From the NCBI RefSeq assembly GCF_014694315.1, contig NZ_JAAOXD010000002.1:254561-318560 (forward strand): DNA of 64,000 nucleotides, read 5' to 3'. A model generated the notes under the pieces. That model did not search any database. It worked only from the letters and a program-made list of their open reading frames with translations, and had not been told where the DNA came from. Made by a program: the position numbers and the translations under genes. This DNA comes from Arthrobacter ipis (GTDB taxonomy: Bacteria; Actinomycetota; Actinomycetes; Actinomycetales; Micrococcaceae). This document shows, one piece after another, positions 4,586 to 31,097 of this stretch; the first letter of the stretch is position 1, and every line of letters starts with the position of its first letter.

Positions 4586-5938
4586 ATGAGCGCCCCCGTG
4601 ACAACACCGGCACCGCCGGCAATCGATCCGAAGATGCGCCGGAAGGCGCTGATTTCCTCAGTGCTTGGCAGCTGCATCGAGTGGTACGACTTCTACGTCT
4701 ACGGCGTAGCGGCCGCCATCATCCTCAACAGCCAGTTCTTCCCCCAGGCGAGTCCGTTCGTTGGGATCCTGCTCTCCTTCAGCACCTATGCCATCGGCTT
4801 CGCGGCGCGCCCCATCGGGGGCGTCATCTTTGCCCACTTCGGTGACCGCCTGGGCCGGAAGAAAATGCTCATGGCCACGCTGGGCCTGATGGGCGGCGGC
4901 ACGTTCCTCATCGGCTGCCTGCCAAACTTCGCCACAATCGGTATCGCGGCACCGATCCTGCTGGTCCTCCTGCGCATCGTGCAGGGCATCGGGGTCGGCG
5001 GCGAGTGGGGCGGGGCCGCCCTGATGGCAACAGAATTTGCCCCGGCCAAACGACGGGGGTTCTTCGGCTCCTGGCCGCAGATCGGCGTACCAGCGGGAAC
5101 ACTGCTGGCCAACGGAGCTTTCTACGTCATGGGTTACCTGATCTCGCCCGAGGCTTTTGTGGCCTGGGGATGGCGCATCCCGTTCCTTGTCTCCATCCTG
5201 CTGGTGGTGCTCTCCTTCTACATCCGCAGCAAGGTGGATGAATCCCCTGCATTCGAAGAAATCAAGCGCAAGGGTGAGATTGAGAAGATGCCGGTGGTTA
5301 AGGTCATCAAGACCCGCCCGCTGACCATCCTCAAAGTCATCATGATGCGGTTTGCCGAGAACGCGAACTACTACATCTACACCACCTTCCTGCTCGCGTA
5401 CGGTCCCGCAGTACTGCTGGAAAAGAACAGCATTCTGTTGGCAACCATGATCATGGCAGGCCTGGGCATCTTCTCCATCCCGTTCTGGGGCTGGGTTTCG
5501 GACCGTTGGGGGCGCCGCTACACGGTCCTCGCGGGAGCTACCACCATGCTCCTGATGGCATTCCCCTTCTTCTGGGCGGTGCAGACCGGTGACTTCCTGA
5601 TGCTTTTGCTCGTGCTCATCCTGACCTGCAACGTCGGCCGCGACCTCTGCTACTCCGTGGAACCCGCCTACTTCACCGAACTCTTCGAGCCCAAGCTCCG
5701 CTACTCGGGAGCATCGGTTGGCCCGCAGGTTGCCGCCGTCTTCGCCGGTGGCTTCGCACCACTGATCGCCACCGCGCTGATCGGCCCGGACTTCGACCGG
5801 TACTGGCTGGTTGCGCTGTACATGATCGCGACGTCGGTCATCACCATCGTCGGTGCGCTTTGGTCTCCGGAAACGGCGCCCCGCGTCCGGCTACGCCGCG
5901 GCCTGAGCGCCGAGCACGATCCCACAACAGGCCGGTAG
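4586..5938 (+). CDS. MFS transporter, metabolite:H+ symporter (ShiA-like) family
   Basis: This is a 450-residue 12-helix major facilitator. The start has the MHS-family signature GSCIEWYDFYVYG. The loop 2-3 motif GDRLGRKKML, the PIGGVIFAHFGDR segment and GVGGEWGGAALMATE also match this subfamily, which moves organic acids such as shikimate, alpha-ketoglutarate and related anions with protons. The start at 4586 has AAAGGAG at 4572-4578. It is divergent from the dehydrogenase operon across the twin operators, and the LacI gene follows 146 bp downstream. It is therefore probably the importer of the acid that the island degrades (inference). Confidence 0.92.
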   Translation: MSAPVTTPAPPAIDPKMRRKALISSVLGSCIEWYDFYVYGVAAAIILNSQFFPQASPFVGILLSFSTYAIGFAARPIGGVIFAHFGDRLGRKKMLMATLGLMGGGTFLIGCLPNFATIGIAAPILLVLLRIVQGIGVGGEWGGAALMATEFAPAKRRGFFGSWPQIGVPAGTLLANGAFYVMGYLISPEAFVAWGWRIPFLVSILLVVLSFYIRSKVDESPAFEEIKRKGEIEKMPVVKVIKTRPLTILKVIMMRFAENANYYIYTTFLLAYGPAVLLEKNSILLATMIMAGLGIFSIPFWGWVSDRWGRRYTVLAGATTMLLMAFPFFWAVQTGDFLMLLLVLILTCNVGRDLCYSVEPAYFTELFEPKLRYSGASVGPQVAAVFAGGFAPLIATALIGPDFDRYWLVALYMIATSVITIVGALWSPETAPRVRLRRGLSAEHDPTTGR

Positions 5939-19701: not shown

Positions 19702-21639
19702 TTAGAAGGGGATCAGGCCGGCCATGGCGGGCAGGAAGGTGCTGAACCACGGAACGGCGGCAAGCACCAGCAGCCCGATGAACACCGCGATGAGGTAGGG
19801 CCAGAAGTGTTTGAGGCTCTTTTCCACGGTCTCGAGGCCGGTTGCGCACGCCACGTAGAAGCCGACACCGGCCGGCGGAGCGAACGAACCGATGCCCATG
19901 GAAATGATCAGCACCATGGCGTACTGCACCGGGTTGACGCCGAATTCGGTGGCGATGGGCAGAAGCAGCGGCGCGAAGATCAGGACCGCGGGCAGGCCTT
20001 CGAGCAGCTGGCCCATGATGATCAGCAGCACGATAGTGAACAGCATGAAGAGCAGCGGTGAGTCGCCCAGGCCGGACATGAGGTCATGGATCTGCTGGGA
20101 TACCCCGGCCAGGGCAAGCGTCTGGGCGAGCGGTGAAGCTGCCGCGATGATGAACAGAACCATGCCCGCCGTCGTCGTGGTTTCCCGCAGGGTATCGCCC
20201 AGCAGCCGCTTGCTGCCGCGCCGGTAGGCGGCCGCGAGAACGAAGGCGTAGGCGACGGCGACCGAGGACACCTCGGTGGGGGTGGCGAAGCCGCTGAGGA
20301 TGCCCACCACCATGCCGACCGGAAGCAGCAGCGTGGGGATGGCGAAGAACGTGGCCGAGCCGCGCGCACGCCAGGTGGCCTTGGGGCTGGCAACGCCGCC
20401 TTGCTTCTTTGCGCGAAGGAAGACGAGCGCCATGACCACGAGGGCCAGGAAGGCAGCCGGAACGAAGCCGGCGAGGAACAGCGTGGTGGTGGAAATCGTG
20501 GTGATGGAGCCCATGATGAGCAGGACGATGCTTGGCGGGATGGTCTCACCCATGATGGCCGAGGCGGACAGCACCGCCACCACCTCGCCGCGCGGGTACT
20601 TTCGTTCCTCAAGCATGCCGCGCATGGTGGTGCCCACGGCGGCGACGTCCGCAACCTTGGAGCCGGAGATGCCCGAGAAGATGTACATGGTCACGACAAC
20701 CACCTGCAGCAGGCCGCCCCGCAGGTGCCCGATGAGCGCGTCCACCAGCTTGGCGAGCGGCAGGGTCAGGCCGGCAGAGTTCATGACGGTTCCCGCGAGG
20801 ATGAAGAACGGGATGGCCAGCAGCACGAAGCCCTTGGCCCCCGACGCCATGCCGATCGGGATGGCGCTGACCTCGGAGATACCACCGAGGTAGAGGTAGA
20901 TGCCCGAAGCCAGCGCGAGGACAAACGCGATGGGCAGGCCAAGGAACAGCAGGGCGAACAGGGCAACCAGAACCACGCCGAGGAGGAGGTTGGGCGAGGC
21001 GGTGTAGAACAGCGGCTGGGACAGGACAACGACGGCGGCCAGGGCTGCGGTGATCCCCGCGCCGACCAGAACGGCGCGGCGCGGCTGGCGCCAGAGCTTC
21101 AGGACGGCAAACCAGGCGATCAGCACCATGCCGATGGAGAAGGGCAGCGATACCCAGAACACCGGCAGCTGGAGGATCGGGGTCTTTTCCTCGAGCTGCT
21201 GGACCAGGGTGGGAACGAAGAGCGCAAAGGCGCCCGCACTCATGACGAAGACGAGGCAGTCGACGAGGGCCGCCAGATACGGCTTCCAGTGTGCCGGAAG
21301 CCGCATGATCAGGGCCTGGACGGCCATGTGCGCACCCTTGGGATAGGCGATCGCACCGCCGATGAAGGCGATGGTCAGGAGCGCAATTTCAGACACTTCC
21401 TGGGTCCAGAGCACAGAGTCGCCCGTGACGACCCTGACCGCGATGTTCAGCAGGATCACGACGAGCTCGGCGAGGATCGCCGCGCCTACTGTCCATTCCA
21501 GTGCCTTGTCCAGCCAGACCGCTCCGCTCCAGCGCGGTGCGACGTGCCCGTGGTGAAGGATCTCTTCCGCATCAGACGGAAGGACCTCTTCGAGTTCCTT
21601 GAGGGCGAGTGTATGTTCCATGTTTTTCCAGACTGTCAT
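19702..21639 (-). CDS. TRAP transporter fused permease (DctQ-DctM)
   Basis: The 645-residue membrane protein joins both TRAP permease subunits. Residues about 40-180 form the small 4-helix DctQ-like part (WTQEVSEIALLTIAFIGGA, YPKGAHMAVQAL). The rest is a 12-helix DctM subunit with SGISGSKVADVAAVGT, GETIPPSIVLLIMGS and FAPPAGVGFYVACA. TRAP importers use Na+ or H+ gradients and a binding protein to take up organic acids. Start ATG 21639 or the in-frame ATG 21621 are both possible. It follows the binding-protein gene across a strong hairpin and precedes the dehydrogenase by 4 bases. Confidence 0.93.
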   Translation of the reverse strand: MTVWKNMEHTLALKELEEVLPSDAEEILHHGHVAPRWSGAVWLDKALEWTVGAAILAELVVILLNIAVRVVTGDSVLWTQEVSEIALLTIAFIGGAIAYPKGAHMAVQALIMRLPAHWKPYLAALVDCLVFVMSAGAFALFVPTLVQQLEEKTPILQLPVFWVSLPFSIGMVLIAWFAVLKLWRQPRRAVLVGAGITAALAAVVVLSQPLFYTASPNLLLGVVLVALFALLFLGLPIAFVLALASGIYLYLGGISEVSAIPIGMASGAKGFVLLAIPFFILAGTVMNSAGLTLPLAKLVDALIGHLRGGLLQVVVVTMYIFSGISGSKVADVAAVGTTMRGMLEERKYPRGEVVAVLSASAIMGETIPPSIVLLIMGSITTISTTTLFLAGFVPAAFLALVVMALVFLRAKKQGGVASPKATWRARGSATFFAIPTLLLPVGMVVGILSGFATPTEVSSVAVAYAFVLAAAYRRGSKRLLGDTLRETTTTAGMVLFIIAAASPLAQTLALAGVSQQIHDLMSGLGDSPLLFMLFTIVLLIIMGQLLEGLPAVLIFAPLLLPIATEFGVNPVQYAMVLIISMGIGSFAPPAGVGFYVACATGLETVEKSLKHFWPYLIAVFIGLLVLAAVPWFSTFLPAMAGLIPF

Positions 21640-21688
21640 CGTTGAAAGCGGGATGCTGAGTGCGGGGATGCTGTTCGGGGGAATGCTG

Positions 21689-21728
21689 TTTGAGGGCCGG
21701 GGCGCCGGAGGGCGCTCCGGCCCTCAAA
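21689..21728 (-). terminator. intercistronic hairpin between TRAP binding protein and permease genes
   Basis: An 18-bp stem (21689-21706 with 21711-21728, one non-Watson-Crick position) has a 4-base loop and lies 5 bases after the DctP-like stop. It has no T-tract within the operon, which suits an mRNA-stabilising or attenuating structure that gives more binding protein than permease. Confidence 0.7.
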
Positions 21729-21733
21729 GGGGC

Positions 21734-22756
21734 TTACTTGGCTGCGGCGATCGCCTGGTCGAAGAATTCCTTGCCGATCAGCTTCGAGAAGTCCGGGTAG
21801 AGGCTCTTTGAAACGGCCTTGAACTGCTCAAGCCCGGCGGCGGTCGGCTCGTTGGCCTTCATGCCCTTGGCGGTGAGCTCGTCGAGCTGCTTTCGGGACT
21901 GCTCCTCGTCGTAACCGGTCTTGAAGGTGGCCGTCTCAGCCGAGGCGTCCGTCAGGATCTTCTTCTGGTCCTCGTTCAGCGAGTCCCACTTCTTGGAGGA
22001 CAGGGCCAGGACCCAGGCGTCGTTGATGTGGTGCGTCAGCGAGACGTACTTCTGGACCTCCGAGAACTTGTTGGTCCACGGCACCTCGATCGGGTTTTCC
22101 TGTCCGTCGATGGTTCCGGTCTGCAGGCCGGTGAAGACCTCCGAGAATGCCATGGTGGTGGGGCTGGCGCCCAGCTTGCCGAAGAAGTCGGTCCACAGCG
22201 GGTTGCCCGGGACGCGGATCTTCAGGCCCTTCAGGTCCGAGGGCTGTTCGATGGGGCGTTCGGAGTTGGTGATCTGGCGGCCGGTCCGGGTGAGGAAGGA
22301 CAGGGCAACGGTGTTCTTTTCCTTGAGCTTTTCCTTCAGGACGTCGCCCGGCTTGCCCGCCAGGAACGCAGCCTCTTCCTTCGTGTCATCGAAGAGGTAG
22401 GGGATGCTGATCGCGTTCATTTCCGGCACCACCGACGCGTACACCGACGTCGACAGGATCAGCGCGTCCAGCGACCCGCCCTGCAGCCTCGTGACGGCGG
22501 CGTTCTGGTCCCCGCTGAAGCTCGTACCGTTCGGCACCACCGTGACAACCACCGAGCCGTTGGAGGTCTTCTTCACCTGGTCGGCGAAGTGCTGGGCCGA
22601 GACACCCACCGAGGAGGTCAGCGGGTCCGGGATGGACAGCTGGATCTTGGCCACCGGCGAGCCACCGCCGGGCGCCCCGGAGGCGCAGCCGGCGAGGACG
22701 GAGGCGGCGAGGGTGCATGCCAGCACTCCGGTGAGGGCGCGGGTCTTCGATTTCAT
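21734..22756 (-). CDS. TRAP transporter substrate-binding lipoprotein (DctP family)
   Basis: The 340-residue protein has a lipobox (VLAGC) after a short signal sequence, so it is membrane-anchored outside the cell. DctP-family motifs include HFADQVKKTSNG, LKGLKIRVPGNPLW, GKLGASPTTMAFSEVFTGLQTG and DGQENPIEVPW. The Arg in KIRVPG normally binds the carboxylate of the ligand, so an organic acid is expected. ATG 22756 has GAAAGG upstream and gives a proper signal peptide, whereas an upstream ATG at 22804 does not. It is the second gene of the operon. Confidence 0.93.
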   Translation of the reverse strand: MKSKTRALTGVLACTLAASVLAGCASGAPGGGSPVAKIQLSIPDPLTSSVGVSAQHFADQVKKTSNGSVVVTVVPNGTSFSGDQNAAVTRLQGGSLDALILSTSVYASVVPEMNAISIPYLFDDTKEEAAFLAGKPGDVLKEKLKEKNTVALSFLTRTGRQITNSERPIEQPSDLKGLKIRVPGNPLWTDFFGKLGASPTTMAFSEVFTGLQTGTIDGQENPIEVPWTNKFSEVQKYVSLTHHINDAWVLALSSKKWDSLNEDQKKILTDASAETATFKTGYDEEQSRKQLDELTAKGMKANEPTAAGLEQFKAVSKSLYPDFSKLIGKEFFDQAIAAAK

Positions 22757-22804
22757 GTGATGCCTTTCTTCATTGGAAGGAGTCTTGTGAATTGCTGGAT
22801 GCAA

Positions 22805-24157
22805 TTAGGAGGTCAGGGCGGCTTCGGTAACAAGCGCCTCGGTTTCGCGGCGCAGCTCGAGGGCCTGGGCGAGCGAGTCGTCCATGATGACGTCTTCCCA
22901 GCGGACGGTGGCACCCTTGGCGACGTCGGCACGCAGCTCGACGTGGTGTGCCAGGGCTACCGGCAGGGCGCCGATGGCCACGGAGTGCTTGGCCGAGACG
23001 AGCTTGCCCCAAACGGTGAAGCCGCCCTCGCCGTCGAGGAATTCGCCGGCCTTCAGGTCCTTCTTGGCGGTGGCGACGACGTCACCGAAGAAGCCGACGG
23101 GCGAGCCTGTTGCAATGCCGCGGAGGGCTGCGTTGGCAATCGACATGTTCAGCTCGAGGCCCACGTAGTGGTACGGGCGGTACAGGGCTGCGTACTGGCC
23201 GGTGGGGTCCGGGTGCCACGGGTATTCATTGAAGCAGCCGGAGACGTAGCCGTTGGTGGCCTTGACCACGACGAAGACGCCTTCCTGGGTGTTGTGGCTG
23301 ATCCAGCTGCCGTCGCGGTTGACGCTGGACATGACGTCCACGCTTCCCTCGTGCGCCAGGGCACCCCCGACGTCGGCCGGGCGGCAGATGGTGGCAATTT
23401 CCTCCACGTCACCGGGCGTGAAGCTCAGCCCGTTGTCAGAGGGCACCAGGCCGGCACCGTTGGCGACGGCTGCCATCTCGATGGATGCCTTGGTGCCGTC
23501 ACGGAAGGAGGTGTGCATGTACGGGTTGAGCTGGCCGGAGTCGGTGAGCTCCTTGGAGAACTCCCAGTTTTCCCAGACGTTGTCCGGGTTCATCTCGTGG
23601 TAGTGCTCGAGGTACTTGGCACCCTTGCCGGCACATACGACGTCGAAGCCGCTGGTCCGGGCCCAGTCCACCAGTTCCATGATGAGCGCGGGCTGGTCGC
23701 CGTACGCCATGGAATAGACGACGCCGGCCTCTTCCGCGCGCTTGGCGAGGGCAGGACCCGCAAGGGCGTCGGCCTCGACCGTGACCATGATGATGTGCTT
23801 CTTGGTTTCGATCGCCCGCAGCGCGTGCTTGACGCCGACGATCGGGTTGCCGGTGGCTTCAACGATGACGTCGATGTCGACGTCGAACAGCTCGTCAGCG
23901 TTTGCCACGATAGTGGTGGAGCGGTTCTCCAATGCGGTGGCGATGTCCGGAGCGATCTGGTTCTGGGGCCAGCCGACCAGTTCGAAGGCGCCCTCAGCCC
24001 GCTTCACGTTGATGTCAGCGATGGCCACAACATGGATGCCCGGGATGTTGTTTGCCTGGGCCAGGTACATGGTGCCGTACCGTCCGGCCCCGATGAGGCC
24101 CACTCGAATGGGACGGCCCTGGTTCTCGCGGTCGCTAAGAAGCTTGTGAAGGTTCAT
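22805..24157 (-). CDS. homoserine dehydrogenase-like/SAF-domain NAD(P)-dependent oxidoreductase
   Basis: The 450-residue protein begins with a Rossmann fold (VGLIGAGRYGTMYLAQ), has IDVIVEATGNPIVG and KKHIIMVTVEADAL typical of homoserine dehydrogenase-like enzymes, and ends with a SAF-type domain (KDLKAGEFLDGEGG to LRADVAKGATV). Proteins of this architecture occur in sugar-acid catabolic operons but I know of no certain reaction. The start ATG 24157 gives a normal N-terminus. It is the first gene of the LacI-controlled TRAP operon, so it probably performs the first intracellular step on the imported acid (inference). Confidence 0.82.
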   Translation of the reverse strand: MNLHKLLSDRENQGRPIRVGLIGAGRYGTMYLAQANNIPGIHVVAIADINVKRAEGAFELVGWPQNQIAPDIATALENRSTTIVANADELFDVDIDVIVEATGNPIVGVKHALRAIETKKHIIMVTVEADALAGPALAKRAEEAGVVYSMAYGDQPALIMELVDWARTSGFDVVCAGKGAKYLEHYHEMNPDNVWENWEFSKELTDSGQLNPYMHTSFRDGTKASIEMAAVANGAGLVPSDNGLSFTPGDVEEIATICRPADVGGALAHEGSVDVMSSVNRDGSWISHNTQEGVFVVVKATNGYVSGCFNEYPWHPDPTGQYAALYRPYHYVGLELNMSIANAALRGIATGSPVGFFGDVVATAKKDLKAGEFLDGEGGFTVWGKLVSAKHSVAIGALPVALAHHVELRADVAKGATVRWEDVIMDDSLAQALELRRETEALVTEAALTS

Positions 24158-24256
24158 GGGGATCTCTCTGATTGATGTCTGACCGAAGAGAGACAACCTC
24201 CACCGTGGGGCCGGTGGAGCAGCTCTTCGGCGTTGCTGCTGTGATTTGGGTTACCG

Positions 24257-24274
24257 AGTGGAACCGGTTCCACT
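24257..24274. promoter_or_regulatory. LacI-type operator, 18-bp perfect palindrome
   Basis: AGTGGAACCGGTTCCACT is a perfect palindrome with the TG-N4-CG-N4-CA core. It begins directly after the -10 of the leftward promoter and lies 68 bp before the start of the divergent LacI gene. Confidence 0.85.
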
Positions 24275-24304
24275 TTTGTACCAGTCGGTGTTAGGCTGTG
24301 TCAA
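24275..24304 (-). promoter_or_regulatory. predicted promoter of the TRAP operon
   Basis: On the minus strand TTGACA (24304-24299) and TACAAA (24280-24275) are separated by 18 bp. The palindromic operator abuts the -10. Confidence 0.65.
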
Positions 24305-24342
24305 CAGATGTCGGTGAAGACCACCGGTTGCAAGGAGGAGCA

Positions 24343-25392
24343 TTGAAGAAGGCGCCCACTATCCGCGATGTGGCGGCAGCGGCGGGGGTCTCCGTATCCG
24401 TAGTCTCGCGGGTGCTGAACCCGGACTCCGGCCCGGTCGCCCCGGCCAAGCGCGAACAGGTCCTGAACGTCATCAGTGAACTCGGGTACCGTCCCCGCGC
24501 TGCGGCGCGTGAACTCAGCGCGGGCCACGCACTCACCGTCGGCCTGGTGGTCACGGACCTCGCCAACCCGTTCTTCGCCCAACTGGCGGACCGTGTTGTG
24601 TGGGAAGCCCGCAGCCACGGTGTGCAGGTGGTGGTCATGACCACGCAGGAGGACCCGCACCTTGAGGCGGAATCCCTGGACACGCTCCTCGACCGTTCGG
24701 TGGGCGGCGTCATCGCCACGCCAACGGGCGGAAACGTCGAGAAATGGGACCGCCTACGGGACCTCGGGGTACACGTGGTTTTCGTGGACCGCGCCATTGC
24801 GGAGCTCAGCGACGTCGACGTCGTCAGCATCGAAAACTCCGACTCGGCCAGGCGCGCAACCGATCACCTTATCGCCCTCGGCCACGAGCGGATCGCCCTC
24901 ATCACCGGCCCCGCCAGCACGTCCACCGGCCGTTCCCGGATCGGCGGCTACCGGGCGGCCCTCGAAAGCGCTTCGCTTAGCCTCGATCCCATGCTGGTCA
25001 GGGACGTTCCCTTCCGCGGAGACGGCGGGGGTGACGCCGTCGGGTCCCTCCTTGCGTCCCCGGACGCCCCCACCGGATTGATCGTCGCCAACACCGCCCA
25101 GGTGCAGAGCTCGGTCCGGCGCCTCGTCCAGATGGGCGTCCGGATACCCGACGACCTCTCGGTTATCGTCTTCGACGACAACCCGTGGACCGAACTGACA
25201 AGCCCGCCGCTCAGCGTGATCCGGCAGCCGATCGGCATGCTGGCGGTGCATTCCCTCGAACTCGTCCTCGGCCGAATGCAGGGCCGGCTCCCCGCGGGTG
25301 CCAGGACCATCGAAGTCAAGGCGGATTTTGTGCCGCGCAGCAGCTGCGTTGCACCGGTCGGCCTCGTCGCCAGCAAGTCCGTAACCGGGTAA
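24343..25392 (+). CDS. LacI-family regulator of the TRAP locus, TTG start
   Basis: The 349-residue repressor has the helix-turn-helix TIRDVAAAAGVSVSVVSRVL (about residues 5-24), hinge LGYRPRAAARELS and the effector domain with LVVTDLANPFFAQL and DDLSVIVFDDNPWTEL. TTG at 24343 is chosen because AAGGAGG lies at the right distance, and starting there puts the HTH at the N-terminus. No ATG or GTG in frame does this. It is divergent from the TRAP operon with the 18-bp palindrome between them, so it is the evident local repressor. A monooxygenase-like gene follows 15 bp downstream. Confidence 0.92.
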   Translation: MKKAPTIRDVAAAAGVSVSVVSRVLNPDSGPVAPAKREQVLNVISELGYRPRAAARELSAGHALTVGLVVTDLANPFFAQLADRVVWEARSHGVQVVVMTTQEDPHLEAESLDTLLDRSVGGVIATPTGGNVEKWDRLRDLGVHVVFVDRAIAELSDVDVVSIENSDSARRATDHLIALGHERIALITGPASTSTGRSRIGGYRAALESASLSLDPMLVRDVPFRGDGGGDAVGSLLASPDAPTGLIVANTAQVQSSVRRLVQMGVRIPDDLSVIVFDDNPWTELTSPPLSVIRQPIGMLAVHSLELVLGRMQGRLPAGARTIEVKADFVPRSSCVAPVGLVASKSVTG

Positions 25393-25769: not shown

Positions 25770-26792
25770 TCAGGCGGGGGCCGCCGTCGATCCCCTGACC
25801 ACCAGCTCGGGGTCCACGAGCTCCGTCCGGACCGGCAGTCCCGGATCCTTCATGCGGTCCAGCAGTGCCTTCGCAGCCCCGGCACCCACCTCGCCGTTGC
25901 GGCCGTCGATGGTGGTCAGGCGCAGAAGGTTCGCCGACGCGAGCGGCGAATTGTCGTAGCCGATCAGGGAAAGCTCCTCCGGGATGCGCCGCCCCCGGTC
26001 CCGCGCCGCGGCCGCCACACCCATCGCCATCACGTCGTTGGCCGCGAAAATCGCCGTGATCGCCGGGTACTGGTCCAGCAGCCTCAGCGCACCCTCGTAG
26101 CCGTCCGGCTCCATCGTCTGCCCGTGGCCCTGCACCGTGTGCGGCTGCAGCCCGTGGTCGCGAATCGCGGCCTCAAACCCCTTCGCCCGCAGACGGGCGG
26201 CGCCGCCCCCGCCGGTCACATGCCCGATTTCCCGGTGCCCGAGCCCGATCAGGTGCTCGGTGGCCAAGCGGCCGCCGGCCTCGTCGTCGTTGGCGACGAT
26301 ATCCGCCCCCGGGACCACGACGTCCCGGTTGCCCGCCACCACCGCGGGAACGTCGACGGCGGCGAACATCTCCTGCGTGGGTTCGGTCGCGATCACTATG
26401 CCGTCCACCCGCAACGACATGAGGCCGTCCACCGGCGTCCGGTCCAGGTGGGCGTTGAACGACGGGTCGGCGACGGCCACGCGGAAGCCGAGCGGTGCAA
26501 GTTCGTCGTGCAGCCCGCCCAGCAGGCTGACGAACCAGAGGTTCCGGTAGTCGTCCAGAACGACGCCGATTGTCCGGGACCGGTTGCCGGCCAGGGTCGC
26601 TGCCGCCCGGCTCGGGCGGTAGTTCAGCCTTTCGATGGCCTCCTCGACGGCAGCCCGGCGGGCGGCCGAGACGCCGGGCGCGCCGCGCAGGACCAGCGAG
26701 ACCAGGGATTTCGACACCCCGGCCGCGGAAGCGACGTCGTAAATGTTCGGGCGTTTTCCGGTCTCCTGGGTCACTCTGCCATTGTCGCCCAT
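25770..26792 (-). CDS. LacI-family regulator of the Gfo/TIM-barrel island
   Basis: The 340-residue repressor has the HTH IYDVASAAGVSKSLVSLVL (about residues 17-35), hinge LNYRPSRAAATLAG and an effector domain with IGVVLDDYRNLWFVSL, FAANDVMAMGVAAAA and LIGYDNSPLASA. ATG 26792 has AAGG 7 bases upstream, and an internal GTG would also leave the HTH intact. It is divergent from the Gfo gene. The palindrome ATGGAGCGCTCCAT lies in the shared intergenic region, and a second copy of its core lies 4 kb away ahead of the ribose-type binding protein. The 3' end overlaps a GC-rich inverted repeat shared with the convergent ABM-like gene. Confidence 0.93.
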   Translation of the reverse strand: MGDNGRVTQETGKRPNIYDVASAAGVSKSLVSLVLRGAPGVSAARRAAVEEAIERLNYRPSRAAATLAGNRSRTIGVVLDDYRNLWFVSLLGGLHDELAPLGFRVAVADPSFNAHLDRTPVDGLMSLRVDGIVIATEPTQEMFAAVDVPAVVAGNRDVVVPGADIVANDDEAGGRLATEHLIGLGHREIGHVTGGGGAARLRAKGFEAAIRDHGLQPHTVQGHGQTMEPDGYEGALRLLDQYPAITAIFAANDVMAMGVAAAARDRGRRIPEELSLIGYDNSPLASANLLRLTTIDGRNGEVGAGAAKALLDRMKDPGLPVRTELVDPELVVRGSTAAPA

Positions 26793-26812
26793 GCACTGAC
26801 CTTATAGGGATA

Positions 26813-26841
26813 TTGACAGGACAAAGTTCCGCCCCTATCGT
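26813..26841 (+). promoter_or_regulatory. predicted promoter of the Gfo/isomerase operon
   Basis: TTGACA (26813-26818) and TATCGT (26836-26841) are separated by exactly 17 bp. The -35 continues as TTGACAGGACAAA, identical to the promoter at 31031-31059. Confidence 0.75.
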
Positions 26842-26845
26842 GTTT

Positions 26846-26859
26846 ATGGAGCGCTCCAT
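26846..26859. promoter_or_regulatory. LacI-type operator, copy 1
   Basis: ATGGAGCGCTCCAT is a perfect 14-bp palindrome with a central CG, 4 bases after the -10. Confidence 0.85.
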
Positions 26860-26918
26860 TTTGCGTCCCACGTCACAGCGGTCGAGTCCCGCAAAGCCCG
26901 TTTCAAAGGAGAAAACCA

Positions 26919-28097
26919 ATGCCCACAGATCTCGGCGTAGCCGTCATCGGGGCGGGCATGGCCGGCAAGGCCCACGCCGCCGCCTTCCGCACCGCATCCG
27001 CCCTGTACAACCCCGTCCTGCCGCCGATCCGGCTCGTTTCCGTCGGAGACGTTAACCCGGAGTTCGGTTCCCTCGCGGCACGGCGCTTCGGCTACGAGCG
27101 CAATGACACCTCATGGCAGGCCATCGCCGAGGCCGATGACATCGACGTCGTCAGCGTTGTCATCGCCAACTCGCTGCACCGGGAAGTGGTGGAGGGCCTC
27201 CTGGCCGCCGGCAAGCACGTATTGTGCGAGAAGCCGCTGAGCGACACCCTGGAGGATGCCCGGGCCATGGCCGACGCCGCCCGCAGCGCCTCCTCGATCG
27301 CCCGCATCGGGTTCACCTTCCGCCGCACCCCGGGCATCGCCTACATCCGCGACCTCATCCGGAACGGGACCCTGGGCAGGGTGCTGCACTTCAGCGGCCG
27401 CTACTGGACGGACTACGGCTTCAGCCCGGATGCGCCCATGAGCTGGCGCTACAAGGGCGGCCCCGGCTCCGGCGCGCTGGCCGACGTCGGAAGCCACCTC
27501 GCGTACGTGTCGGAGTTCCTCTGCGGCGACATCAAGTCCATCAGCGGCGGCCGCCTCAGCACGGCGATCGACAAGCGGCCCCTGCCGCTGGGCGCCGTCA
27601 TCGGACATGACCACGCCGCCGTCAGCGACACCTACGAGGCCGTGGAGAACGACGACTACGCAGCCTTCTCCGCCGAGTTCGAAAACGGCGCCGGCAGCTT
27701 CGAAGTCTCCCGCGTGGCAGCCGGCCATGCCAACAGCCTCAACTTCGAGGTCTTCTGCGAGAACGGCTCCGCGAAGTTCGACCAGCGCCGCCCCGGCGAG
27801 GTCCAGCTCTTTCTCAATGACGGCTCCGGCCACGAGAGCGGCTACCGCCAGGTCATCCTCGGCCCGGGCCACCCCTACATCGCCGGCGGCCTTGCCATGG
27901 ACGCCCCCGAGGTCGGTTTCGGCCAGAACGACGCGTTCGCCTACCAGTCGCGTGCGTTCCTCGAAGAGGTAGCCGGCCTCAGCGAAGCGGAATCCCTGCC
28001 GCGCTGCGCTACCTTCGACGAAGGCGTCCGCAACATGGAACTGCTCGCCGCCGTCACCGAATCAGCCCTGAACAACGGAAAGATGATCACGCTATGA
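26919..28097 (+). CDS. Gfo/Idh/MocA-family oxidoreductase
   Basis: The 392-residue dehydrogenase has the N-terminal Rossmann motif VIGAGMAGKAHAAAF, the family EKPLS motif (KHVLCEKPLSDTLEDA) with its catalytic lysine, and the substrate domain with GALADVGSHLAYVSEFLCG, which places the usual catalytic Asp and His. Such enzymes oxidise inositols, sugars or their derivatives with NAD(P). The start ATG 26919 has AAAGGAG upstream. It is the first gene after the operator and overlaps the isomerase gene by ATGA. The likely role is the first oxidation of a sugar or cyclitol (inference). Confidence 0.94.
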   Translation: MPTDLGVAVIGAGMAGKAHAAAFRTASALYNPVLPPIRLVSVGDVNPEFGSLAARRFGYERNDTSWQAIAEADDIDVVSVVIANSLHREVVEGLLAAGKHVLCEKPLSDTLEDARAMADAARSASSIARIGFTFRRTPGIAYIRDLIRNGTLGRVLHFSGRYWTDYGFSPDAPMSWRYKGGPGSGALADVGSHLAYVSEFLCGDIKSISGGRLSTAIDKRPLPLGAVIGHDHAAVSDTYEAVENDDYAAFSAEFENGAGSFEVSRVAAGHANSLNFEVFCENGSAKFDQRRPGEVQLFLNDGSGHESGYRQVILGPGHPYIAGGLAMDAPEVGFGQNDAFAYQSRAFLEEVAGLSEAESLPRCATFDEGVRNMELLAAVTESALNNGKMITL

Positions 28098-29110
28098 AGC
28101 TCGGCGTCTACAACGCAATCCTGCACGACCGCCCGCTGCCCGAGGCCCTGAAGGTCGTCGCAGACCTGGGCCTGACCGGCATCGAAATCAACTCCGGCGG
28201 GTTCCTGCCGGCGGTGCACGTTCCCACCTTCGACGACATCCTCGAAAGTGACGCCGCGCGCGATGACTACCTCGCGATCTTCGAGGGCACCGGCGTCTCC
28301 ATCGCGGGACTGAACTGCAACGGCAACCCGCTGCACCCCAACCGCGCCATCGGCGACAAGCACGCCGAGGACATCCGCCGCTCCATCCGCCTGGCCCACC
28401 GCCTCGGACAGAACCGCGTGGTCACCATGTCAGGCCTCCCCGGCGGGGAACCCGGCGCCACCGTGCCGAACTGGATCGTCAATGCCTGGAACTCCGCGGC
28501 GCTGGACGTCCTGGACTACCAGTGGGGCGTCGCCGCCAAGTTCTGGAAGGAAACCGACCGGCTCGCCGCCGACCACGACGTCAAGGTCGCCCTGGAACTG
28601 CACCCGCAGAACCTCGTCTTCAACCCCGCCGACGTGTACAAGCTGGTCGAACTGACCGGCGCCACCCACGTGGGCGTCGAGCTCGACGCCTCCCACCTGT
28701 TCTGGCAGCAGATGGACCCGGTGGCCGTGGTCCGTGAACTTGGCCCGCTGGTCTTCCACGCAGCCGCCAAGGACGTGCGCGTCAACAAAGACACCGCCGC
28801 GGTTTATGGTGTCCTCGACAACCGCTTCCGCCGGCTTTCCCCCGAGGAGAACCGCACCAACCTCGGCGGCGACGAATGGGCCAACGAATGGCCCAAGCCC
28901 GCCGCCTGGGACTTCGTCGCTCTCGGCAAAGGCCACGACACCGCCTACTGGACCGAGTTCCTGCGCGCCCTCCACGAGGTGGACCCCGACATGCTCGTCA
29001 ACATCGAACACGAAGACGTCGAACTCGGCCGCATCGAAGGCCTCGAAGTCGCCGCCAAGGTCCTGAAGGACGCGGACGCAGCTTTGGCTGCCTCGCTGGT
29101 CAACCACTAA
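28094..29110 (+). CDS. sugar phosphate isomerase/epimerase-like TIM-barrel protein
   Basis: The 338-residue protein is of the xylose-isomerase-like TIM-barrel superfamily (AP endonuclease 2 family). It has LKVVADLGLTGIEINSGG, the metal-ligand strands VALELHPQNLVF and GVELDASHLFWQQMDP, and VNIEHEDVELGRIEG. These enzymes isomerise or dehydrate keto sugars, for example IolE and IolI. The start overlaps the Gfo stop (ATGA). Together the pair resembles inositol-type catabolism, but no other iol genes are present in the window. Confidence 0.92.
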   Translation: MKLGVYNAILHDRPLPEALKVVADLGLTGIEINSGGFLPAVHVPTFDDILESDAARDDYLAIFEGTGVSIAGLNCNGNPLHPNRAIGDKHAEDIRRSIRLAHRLGQNRVVTMSGLPGGEPGATVPNWIVNAWNSAALDVLDYQWGVAAKFWKETDRLAADHDVKVALELHPQNLVFNPADVYKLVELTGATHVGVELDASHLFWQQMDPVAVVRELGPLVFHAAAKDVRVNKDTAAVYGVLDNRFRRLSPEENRTNLGGDEWANEWPKPAAWDFVALGKGHDTAYWTEFLRALHEVDPDMLVNIEHEDVELGRIEGLEVAAKVLKDADAALAASLVNH

Positions 29111-29138
29111 CCGCAACCCGCAACACACACACCACCAC

Positions 29139-29177
29139 GGAAGCCTGCCGGCACCAGCCGGCAGGCTTCCGCTTTGT
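29139..29177 (+). terminator. terminator of the Gfo/isomerase operon
   Basis: A perfect 13-bp stem GGAAGCCTGCCGG/CCGGCAGGCTTCC (29139-29151, 29158-29170) has a 6-base loop and is followed by GCTTTGT. Confidence 0.85.
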
Positions 29178-29298
29178 CCGGAGCCGCACGGCCCGCGGGT
29201 ATCGTAGTTTTGACTTCGCTGCCACAGGTTCAACGGCCTGCCGCACCTCGGAAATCTCGCACCTGCCTTAGCCCCCGCAGGCCGCTGCCTGCAATATT

Positions 29299-29610
29299 GT
29301 GTCTGGGCTCGTGTCGGTGCTGCAAGCATTCGGTTCCGGCTGCTGGCGCTGGATTCTGCTCGCCGCCGCCGCGCTGGTCACCGTCGTCATGCTCATGATT
29401 GTGGGCTGCTTCGTGACGTTTCGCGGTGCGGTTCGGCTCGCCTTCTGGGGCACCGGTCCCACCATGCTCGTCGCTGCGGTTTTGACCGCCGTCGGATTCC
29501 TCGTCTGCGTGTTCACGGCCGAGGAAACCAAGGGCATGACGCTGGCCCAGGCCGGCGGCGAGCCGGAATCCGCAACCAGTAACGATGAGCAGTCGCTCCA
29601 GACAGACTAG
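29299..29610 (+). pseudogene. probable C-terminal remnant of an MFS transporter
   Basis: The reading frame encodes about 103 residues with two hydrophobic helices and the sequence LVCVFTAEETKGMTLAQAG, the usual end of major facilitator transporters after the last helix. The first ten helices are absent, and nothing upstream to the terminator at 29177 restores them. It opens at a GTG without a ribosome-binding site. A good terminator (29628-29678) still follows it. A decayed transporter of the neighbouring catabolic island is the simplest reading. A genuine two-helix small protein cannot be excluded. Confidence 0.45.
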
Positions 29611-29627
29611 CGGCGCGAACTAGTCGC

Positions 29628-29678
29628 AACAAAGGCGTGCCGTTCAGGTTTCCCACCTGGGCGGCACGCCTTTGTTTT
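29628..29678 (+). terminator. rho-independent terminator after MFS remnant
   Basis: A perfect 15-bp stem (29628-29642 with 29662-29676) is followed by TTCC within TTTGTTTTCC. Confidence 0.8.
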
Positions 29679-29878
29679 CCCGGCCGGACGGCGGTCGAAG
29701 TCCATAGTCTCCGCGGAAATCGCCCAGCAACTGGCGCCGGCCCAAGAGCGCCGACCTGCGGGACCTGATGACCTGGCGGCAGCCACGGCAGCCACGGCCG
29801 GCTCAGAGGCGCGGCTGGCTTCCAGTCGCTCCGATGAGCAGGACGTGCGGCGTCTTTTGAAGCTCGCCCAAGGGTTGG

Positions 29879-29923
29879 CCCCGCTGGTTGAGCCTGTGGT
29901 TTCGGCAGGCTCAACCAGCGGGG
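29879..29923. repeat. perfect 18-bp inverted repeat (GGTTGAGCCTG family), terminator of the binding-protein gene
   Basis: Arms 29879-29896 and 29906-29923 pair perfectly around TGGTTTCGG, directly beside the stop codon of the leftward binding-protein gene. The GGTTGAGCCTG core resembles short intergenic palindromes common in Arthrobacter genomes (recalled, not searched). A related GGTTGAGCGGCG unit occurs twice near 17361-17390. Confidence 0.7.
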
Positions 29924-29924
29924 G

Positions 29925-30920
29925 CTAGCGGATGCCCTGGTCGGAGAATTTCACGACGTCCGCCGCGTTGGACTTGTCAACGATGGTGGGCCCGGTGAGC
30001 ACCGGCTGCCCGCCGCCGAGCTTGAAGCCGCCCCGCTTGGCCTGCCACAGGGCGTCCACGGAACCGTAACCCTGGAGCCAGGGCTGCTGGTCCACCGTGA
30101 ACAGCACGGTGCCGTCCGCGATCTTCTGGGCAAGCTCCTTGTTCAGGTCAAAGGAGGCGACCTTCGCCGAGCTGCCCGCAGTTGCGACGGATTTCAGCAG
30201 GGTGAGCGTGACGGGTGCCCCCAGGCCGATGATGACGTCGGCGTCTTTGGCTGCCTGCAGCTTGGCCGTTGCCGTCGATTCCACGGACGTCATGTCGGCG
30301 CCGTTCACGTACAAGATCTCGGTTCCCGGGACCTTGGACTTCACACCGGCGCAGCGCGCTTCCAGCCCCACGTGCCCCTGGGCCTGGATAACGCAGATGG
30401 GGTGCTTGAAGTTCTCAGCCGCCAGCTTCTCACCCACCGCCTGGCCGGCGAGCTGTTCGTTGGAGCCGAAGTGCGTGAAGGCCCCGAGCTCCTTGGAGAC
30501 GTCCTCACCGGCGTTCAGGCTGACGATGGGGATGCCAGCGTCAGAGGCCTTCTTGAGGGAATCCTTCAGCGCACCGGGCGTGGCCAGGGTGACGGCGATT
30601 CCGTCCACCTTCTGATCCACAGCCTGCTGGATCAGCTGCGCCTGCCGGCCCGCCTCGGGATCGTTGGTGTAGAGAAGCTCCACGTTGTCCTTTGCCGCGG
30701 CCTCCTCGGCGCCCTTCCGGACGGTGTCCCAGAAGGTGTCGCCCGCCGGAGCGTGCGTGATCAGCGCAATCTTCATGCGCGGAGTCGAGGCAGCCTGGCC
30801 CCCGCCGCCCCCGCTGTTGGATTCCGGCGCCCGTCCGCCCTGACTGGAGCATGCCGTCAAAGCCAGCATCGGGATTGCAACCGCGGCCACCGCTGCGCGG
30901 CGCCAAAAAAACTTCTTCAC
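29925..30920 (-). CDS. ribose-type sugar ABC substrate-binding lipoprotein
   Basis: The 331-residue protein has a lipobox (LALTAC) and a Ser/Gly-rich spacer. The type I periplasmic binding fold includes ALITHAPAGDTFWDTVRKGAEEAA, QAVDQKVDGIAVTLATPGAL and GIPIVSLNAGED. GTG at 30920 is chosen because AAGGAG precedes it and it begins a proper signal peptide. The longer frame to 31010 would cross the 5' leader. No permease or ATPase adjoins it. Its promoter carries the same operator as the Gfo operon, so it belongs to the same LacI regulon and probably binds the island's sugar. Confidence 0.93.
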   Translation of the reverse strand: MKKFFWRRAAVAAVAIPMLALTACSSQGGRAPESNSGGGGGQAASTPRMKIALITHAPAGDTFWDTVRKGAEEAAAKDNVELLYTNDPEAGRQAQLIQQAVDQKVDGIAVTLATPGALKDSLKKASDAGIPIVSLNAGEDVSKELGAFTHFGSNEQLAGQAVGEKLAAENFKHPICVIQAQGHVGLEARCAGVKSKVPGTEILYVNGADMTSVESTATAKLQAAKDADVIIGLGAPVTLTLLKSVATAGSSAKVASFDLNKELAQKIADGTVLFTVDQQPWLQGYGSVDALWQAKRGGFKLGGGQPVLTGPTIVDKSNAADVVKFSDQGIR

Positions 30921-31011
30921 TGGTGATCTCCTTCGATCGTGTCCGGAAGACTGGGGGAACAACACCACTGCATCTTCCCAGCCGGAGAAGAGGGGTGTGA
31001 CCGAGCGCATT

Positions 31012-31023
31012 TGGAGCGCTCCA
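31012..31023. promoter_or_regulatory. LacI-type operator, copy 2
   Basis: TGGAGCGCTCCA repeats the palindromic core of copy 1 (26847-26858). It lies 7 bases after the -10 of the leftward promoter, in the 5' leader of the binding-protein gene. Confidence 0.85.
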
Positions 31024-31030
31024 TTACTCG

Positions 31031-31059
31031 AGAATAGAAGCAGGAGTTTGTCCTGTCAA
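31031..31059 (-). promoter_or_regulatory. predicted promoter of the ribose-type binding protein gene
   Basis: On the minus strand TTGACA (31059-31054) and TATTCT (31036-31031) are separated by 17 bp. TTGACAGGACAAA is identical to the promoter at 26813. Confidence 0.78.
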
Positions 31060-31097
31060 TAGTTCTATTCGGCCGGTATGGGCAGCGGCAGCCGCCC

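Follow-up and report, generated by a model that had tools for sequence, protein, structure and literature searches.

Organization of the locus

The window analyzed in this study is a stretch of 64,000 nucleotides from Arthrobacter ipis (contig NZ_JAAOXD010000002.1, positions 254,561 to 318,560), and we describe two look-alike promoters within it, which precede genes for a dehydrogenase and a sugar-binding protein. The closest named records were those of Arthrobacter sp. AFG20 and A. globiformis. The lacI gene (25770..26792, minus strand), encoding a LacI-family repressor with the recognition helix GVSKSLVSLVL, is divergent from gfo (26919..28097, plus strand), which encodes a dehydrogenase of the Gfo/Idh/MocA family with similarity to levoglucosan and scyllo-inositol dehydrogenases. 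The gene for a triosephosphate isomerase (TIM)-barrel enzyme of the AP_endonuc_2 type (28094..29110, plus strand) overlaps gfo by 4 bp, and a substrate-binding protein (SBP), a lipoprotein of the CUT2 sugar/inositol type, is encoded on the minus strand (29925..30920) with no adjoining permease or ATPase. The LacI protein scored above the cutoffs of both PF00356 and PF13377 (Pfam LacI and Peripla_BP_3), corresponding to a LacI helix-turn-helix domain and a periplasmic-binding-like domain.

Sigma-70-like promoter matches were found at two places between 26700 and 31200, and at no others. The gfo promoter (26813..26841, plus strand) comprises TTGACA at 26813-26818, a 17-bp spacer, and TATCGT at 26836-26841, and the SBP promoter (31031..31059, minus strand) comprises TTGACA at 31059-31054, a 17-bp spacer, and TATTCT at 31036-31031. 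Downstream of each -10 element lies the palindrome TGGAGCGCTCCA (no strand assigned), at 26847..26858 after a 5-bp gap and near the expected +1 in the gfo promoter, and at 31023-31012 after a 7-bp gap in the SBP promoter. Upstream, a box of IolR type, TGACAGGACA, overlaps the -35 element of gfo (26814..26823, plus strand) and is repeated in the SBP promoter (31049..31058, minus strand). The initial annotation had described near-copy promoters sharing the -35 region, the 17-bp spacing, a TAT-type -10, and a palindrome 4-7 bases past it, and this description was borne out at both sites. Since the SBP most likely starts at GTG 30920, with a good Shine-Dalgarno sequence and a lipoprotein signal, and not at ATG 31010, its operator would lie in the 5' leader.

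A pattern search of the whole genome (4.5 Mb, 17 contigs) found the exact 13-mer TTGACAGGACAAA of the two promoters at 2 sites (about 0.02 expected by base composition) and the exact palindrome TGGAGCGCTCCA likewise at 2 sites (about 0.5 expected), all of them in the window promoters, so that the exact search revealed no further LacI operators in the genome. With one mismatch allowed, the 13-mer was matched at C1:795940 and C11:472995. The same relaxation for the palindrome gave 9 further places in the genome against 8 for the reversed control, and these matches were therefore regarded as noise.

A probable palindromic operator covarying with the LacI-family repressor

The palindrome, which has a central CG and lies beside the lacI gene, covaries with the recognition helix of the repressor. 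This was observed when 66 LacI regulators, consisting of 21 Lys-type and 45 Pro/Thr-type proteins, were compared with the operators upstream of gfo. The operator TGGAGCGCTCCA was present with 20 of the 21 Lys-type regulators, the remaining locus (L190) having no recognizable site, and with none of the 45 Pro/Thr-type regulators, all of which showed a base change in one or both half-sites (TGTAGCGCTACA in 25, the hybrid TGTAGCGCTCCA in 19, and TGCAGCGCTCCA in 1). The switching residue opens the recognition helix and corresponds by alignment with LacI to AA-15, and the operator base that changes is NT-4. The published LacI code links the AA-15/AA-16 pair with bases NT-5/NT-4 (PMC2978694), and the covariation thus agrees with expectation. 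In the LacI tree, the Pro state forms one clade and the Thr pair stands apart from it, indicating at least two independent switches.

Consequently, the adjacent LacI protein very probably has TGGAGCGCTCCA as its operator, and a repressor bound just past the -10 element would be expected to block initiation. The proposal that the regulator at 25770-26792 controls both units through the palindrome is supported by this covariation among relatives. DNA looping over the island, which had also been suggested, was rejected as a conserved feature, because the distance between the operators is 4.2 kb here but about 7.4 kb in A. globiformis, and only one operator is present in most relatives.

An inositol-associated box at the -35 element

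A whole-genome search for TTGACAKKACA returned 3 sites, namely the two window promoters and the promoter of iolC, where the site lies about 115 bp upstream of the gene heading an iolC-aldolase-iolD-mmsA-iolE-iolG cluster. The LacI palindrome was not present at the iolC promoter. Across 30 loci, from this genome and from 29 congeners, TTGACAGGACA or a one-base variant of it (TTGACAGTACA, TTGACATGACA) occupied a fixed place in this promoter. The wider box TGWYAGGACAWW had 6 matches in the genome, all inositol-related, and its reversed control had 0. Besides the two window promoters and iolC, the matches belong to a tautomerase gene next to iolC, to a complete ATP-binding cassette (ABC) transporter of the inositol type, and to a GntR/HutC regulator gene, in whose promoter the box lies.

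The tautomerase gene, a small one located immediately upstream of iolC (G000:C15:299573, minus strand; L063, about 5150-5590), has a perfect TGTCAGGACA box directly ahead of its ribosome-binding site. In several relatives a box of this type is again present, about 0.6 kb upstream of iolC, which makes an inositol role of the gene likely. Additional TGACAGGACA boxes were seen directly downstream of the TIM-barrel gene in four loci (L177, L183, L196, and L226). In L054 (G038), the box after the TIM-barrel gene precedes another Gfo/Idh/MocA gene, which is therefore probably one more member of the regulon.

The wider box was tested independently in 20 other genomes, 16 of which had iolR/iolC. In these 16 genomes, 62 of 99 matches were located at iolC, iolR, or gfo or no more than 12 kb away from one of these genes. 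The density elsewhere was 0.50/Mb, on a par with the 0.64/Mb in genomes lacking iolC/iolR and close to the 0.36/Mb of the reversed control. Of 126 boxes in 80 named loci, 114 lay at most 300 bp upstream of iolC, iolR, or gfo genes, with 3.4 boxes expected in all. The 11 bases of TTGACAGGACA were 100% identical in 62 gfo promoters of relatives, and the flank upstream was 30-60% identical. The box was also unchanged where the LacI operator has become TGTAGCGCTACA. The distance from the -35 to TANNNT in these relatives was 17 bp (56 promoters) or 18 bp (6 promoters), and a -35 hexamer by itself would not fix GGACA.

Predicted enzymes and transport

Gfo was about equally related to the levoglucosan dehydrogenase 6a3f and to scyllo-inositol dehydrogenases, and its 251 bits fell well below the NCBIfam LevoglcsnDh cutoff of 650. 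The TIM-barrel protein was likewise outside the myo-inosose-2 dehydratase family IolE (35.6 bits against the TIGR04379 cutoff of 290). Its predicted structure (mean predicted local distance difference test score, pLDDT, 86) had SCO6571 and 2-hydroxy-3-keto-glucal hydratase (8ro4) as fold neighbors, followed by IolI, epimerases, and IolE, and its sequence is conserved at 84-95% identity between several genera. Many relatives have the gfo-TIM pair inside or next to the iol cluster, and in several it is about 10-15 kb from iolC. Our best guess is that the pathway involves oxidation followed by dehydration, hydration, or isomerization of an inositol isomer or derivative. The best matches among named enzymes, 6a3f and 8ro4, might instead suggest that the pair acts on 3-keto-glycosides or anhydrosugars in a levoglucosan-like manner and is unrelated to inositol. 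We consider this unlikely, in view of the location in the iol cluster of relatives, the iol-type box, and the rhizopine/inositol-type binding protein, and the similarity to scyllo-inositol dehydrogenase and to IolE/IolI is comparable. An inositol glycoside as the substrate would satisfy both readings.

A complete SBP-permease-ATPase operon is present on contig C1, with the permease and ATPase at C1:252-256 kb and an SBP 80% identical to that of the window (tblastn). This operon carries the box TGTTAGGACA and lacks a LacI operator of the present type. An orphan transporter was thus ruled out; the SBP does stand alone in the window, as the initial annotation had stated, but the permease and ATPase that it expected in the LacI regulon are under the box only. 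The window SBP may feed the C1 permease. In many relatives the SBP, permease, and ATPase genes adjoin lacI-gfo-TIM, so that the locus in the window resembles a cluster that has partly dispersed. The C1 region (G000:C1, about 249.4-256.7 kb; L161) itself contains a second lacI-gfo-TIM-SBP-permease-ATPase-gfo cluster with an inositol box before the SBP gene. Elsewhere in the window, at 19702-25392, a neighboring, separate catabolic unit comprises genes for a tripartite ATP-independent periplasmic (TRAP) transporter (DctP and a fused DctQM) and an oxidoreductase of the DRL_cat type, together with a second lacI-type gene in divergent orientation.

Candidate IolR and proposed dual control of the two promoters

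A gene encoding a GntR/HutC-family regulator (G000:C15:285023-285763) is located just upstream of iolB, and we regard it as a candidate IolR. The protein has PF00392 (GntR) and PF07702 (UTRA) domains, as in the HutC subfamily, and is encoded with the iol genes. Its own promoter carries the box, as TGTCCTAACA here and as ATGTCCTATCAA in most congeners. The consensus of Corynebacterium glutamicum IolR is reported to be KGWCHTRACA, which TGTCCTAACA matches exactly and the window box matches with one mismatch. The gene was present in 27 of 31 genomes, co-occurring with iolC; of the 4 genomes with no match, 3 also lacked iolC, and G029 had only a partial iolC match. The iolC-less genomes G022, G023, G030, and G032 did not contain TTGACAGGACAWA, and their wider boxes occurred at background density. 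The box reads GT-N4-AC at the iol promoters and at the promoter of the regulator, with one half-site reading GA in the window boxes, and it thus fits the rule that HutC-type operators have four bases between GT and AC (PMC4494728). From the autoregulatory position, the co-occurrence, and the HutC-type geometry, we infer that the box TGWYAGGACA is probably bound by this IolR-like GntR/HutC repressor.

The position of the box relative to the promoter core differs among inositol promoters. In Kocuria, the gfo box TGTCCTGACA is inverted and set apart from the -35 (TTGAC), which follows several bases further downstream, and the LacI operator keeps its usual place. In iolR promoters the box lies just downstream of the -10. 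The box is therefore separable from the promoter core and operator-like. In SBP-transporter promoters of relatives (L175, L179, L188, L198, and others), it immediately precedes TTGACA, whereas in the gfo promoter the two overlap.

Since the box is common to inositol promoters across the genus and frozen, and the palindrome tracks the local LacI protein, each window promoter is, with good confidence, a composite in which an IolR-type box merges with the -35 and a LacI operator lies near +1. Both promoters are, with equally good confidence, doubly controlled members of the Arthrobacter inositol-catabolic regulon, having a GntR/HutC box and a LacI operator. In the mechanism that we propose, the shared TTGACAGGACA would serve as an operator (TGWYAGGACA) for the GntR/HutC analogue of IolR, fused to the -35 hexamer in both promoters. 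Most likely both proteins are repressors: the GntR protein, answering to a general inositol signal, would block the -35, and the LacI protein, whose specific ligand is probably an isomer or derivative of inositol, would block +1. Each signal would relieve the respective block. The dehydrogenase/TIM pair and the extra SBP would then be made only when the general inositol signal and the specific ligand are present together. On balance, we somewhat favor the complete picture of a two-lock promoter, with an IolR operator built into the -35 and a LacI operator at +1, in which AND control would govern an inositol-derivative pathway of a dehydrogenase and a keto-sugar hydratase/isomerase, the LacI operator switching with the helix while the IolR box stays frozen.

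Several points weigh against this interpretation. The wider box TGWYAGGACAWW was widened with sites of this genome, the helix/operator switch is backed by only about two independent events, and the left half-site of the window box has one non-consensus base, GA for GT, which is perhaps a compromise with TTGACA. Moreover, a box placed just ahead of the -35, as seen at Kocuria gfo and at the SBP genes of relatives, also fits activation. Accordingly, the box might be real but activating, or bound by another, for example global, regulator. This appears quite unlikely, given the evidence named above for the GntR protein as the binder and the state of the box in the four iolC-less genomes.

The initial annotation had taken the whole duplicated promoter, with TTGACAGGACAAA, as the mark of a single LacI regulon, and the likeness of the -35 regions would then reflect a copied promoter. 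The 13-mer and the palindrome do coincide at these two places only, but iolC, iolR, and the complete transporter have the box without the LacI palindrome, the box is constant where the operator became TGTAGCGCTACA, and Kocuria keeps the box and the -35 apart. A copied promoter is thus very unlikely, and TTGACAGGACAAA did not hold up as a mark of the LacI regulon. It is scarcely credible that TTGACAGGACA represents no more than a lengthened sigma-factor site, with conservation reaching from a strong -35 into the beginning of the spacer. TTGACA is indeed a perfect -35 at 17 or 18 bp from TANNNT in the 62 relatives with the box, but TTGACAKKACA has only 3 sites in 4.5 Mb, all in inositol promoters. 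In other inositol promoters the box has the opposite orientation, precedes the -35, or follows the -10.

Comparison with known systems

With composite control as the preferred reading, a pair of look-alike promoters becomes part of a regulon, and one box lists the inositol genes of Arthrobacter and its relatives. In addition, the LacI/operator pair with its natural switched variants is suited to tests of the LacI recognition code, and the locus points to an uncharacterized oxidize-then-dehydrate/isomerize enzyme pair tied to inositol catabolism. The levoglucosan pathway LgdA-LgdB1/B2 (PMC10066097) similarly combines a Gfo/Idh/MocA dehydrogenase with a PF01261 TIM-barrel enzyme and an ABC transporter, whereas the Gfo protein here is far below the LevoglcsnDh cutoff and is sited with iol genes.

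The GntR-type IolR regulon of C. glutamicum (PMC9603128) resembles the one proposed here in having an actinobacterial GntR-family repressor of inositol transport and catabolism genes, the two proteins being compared here by domain architecture and context only. In our case, however, the gene is a neighbor of iolB, two promoters have the box fused to their -35, and there is an additional LacI-type operator. Bacillus subtilis, with IolR and the LacI-family IolQ in the control of iolX, encoding scyllo-inositol dehydrogenase (PMC5504672), also combines a general inositol repressor with a local LacI-type repressor of a side-branch inositol dehydrogenase. There, IolR acts on the iol operon and iolT and IolQ has been shown at iolX, whereas both sites lie in one promoter here, and the IolQ site AGAAARCGCTTKCK differs from the present operator. 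Judged by these comparisons, the regulation is of an ordinary kind, for which B. subtilis IolR/IolQ and C. glutamicum IolR are the known precedents.

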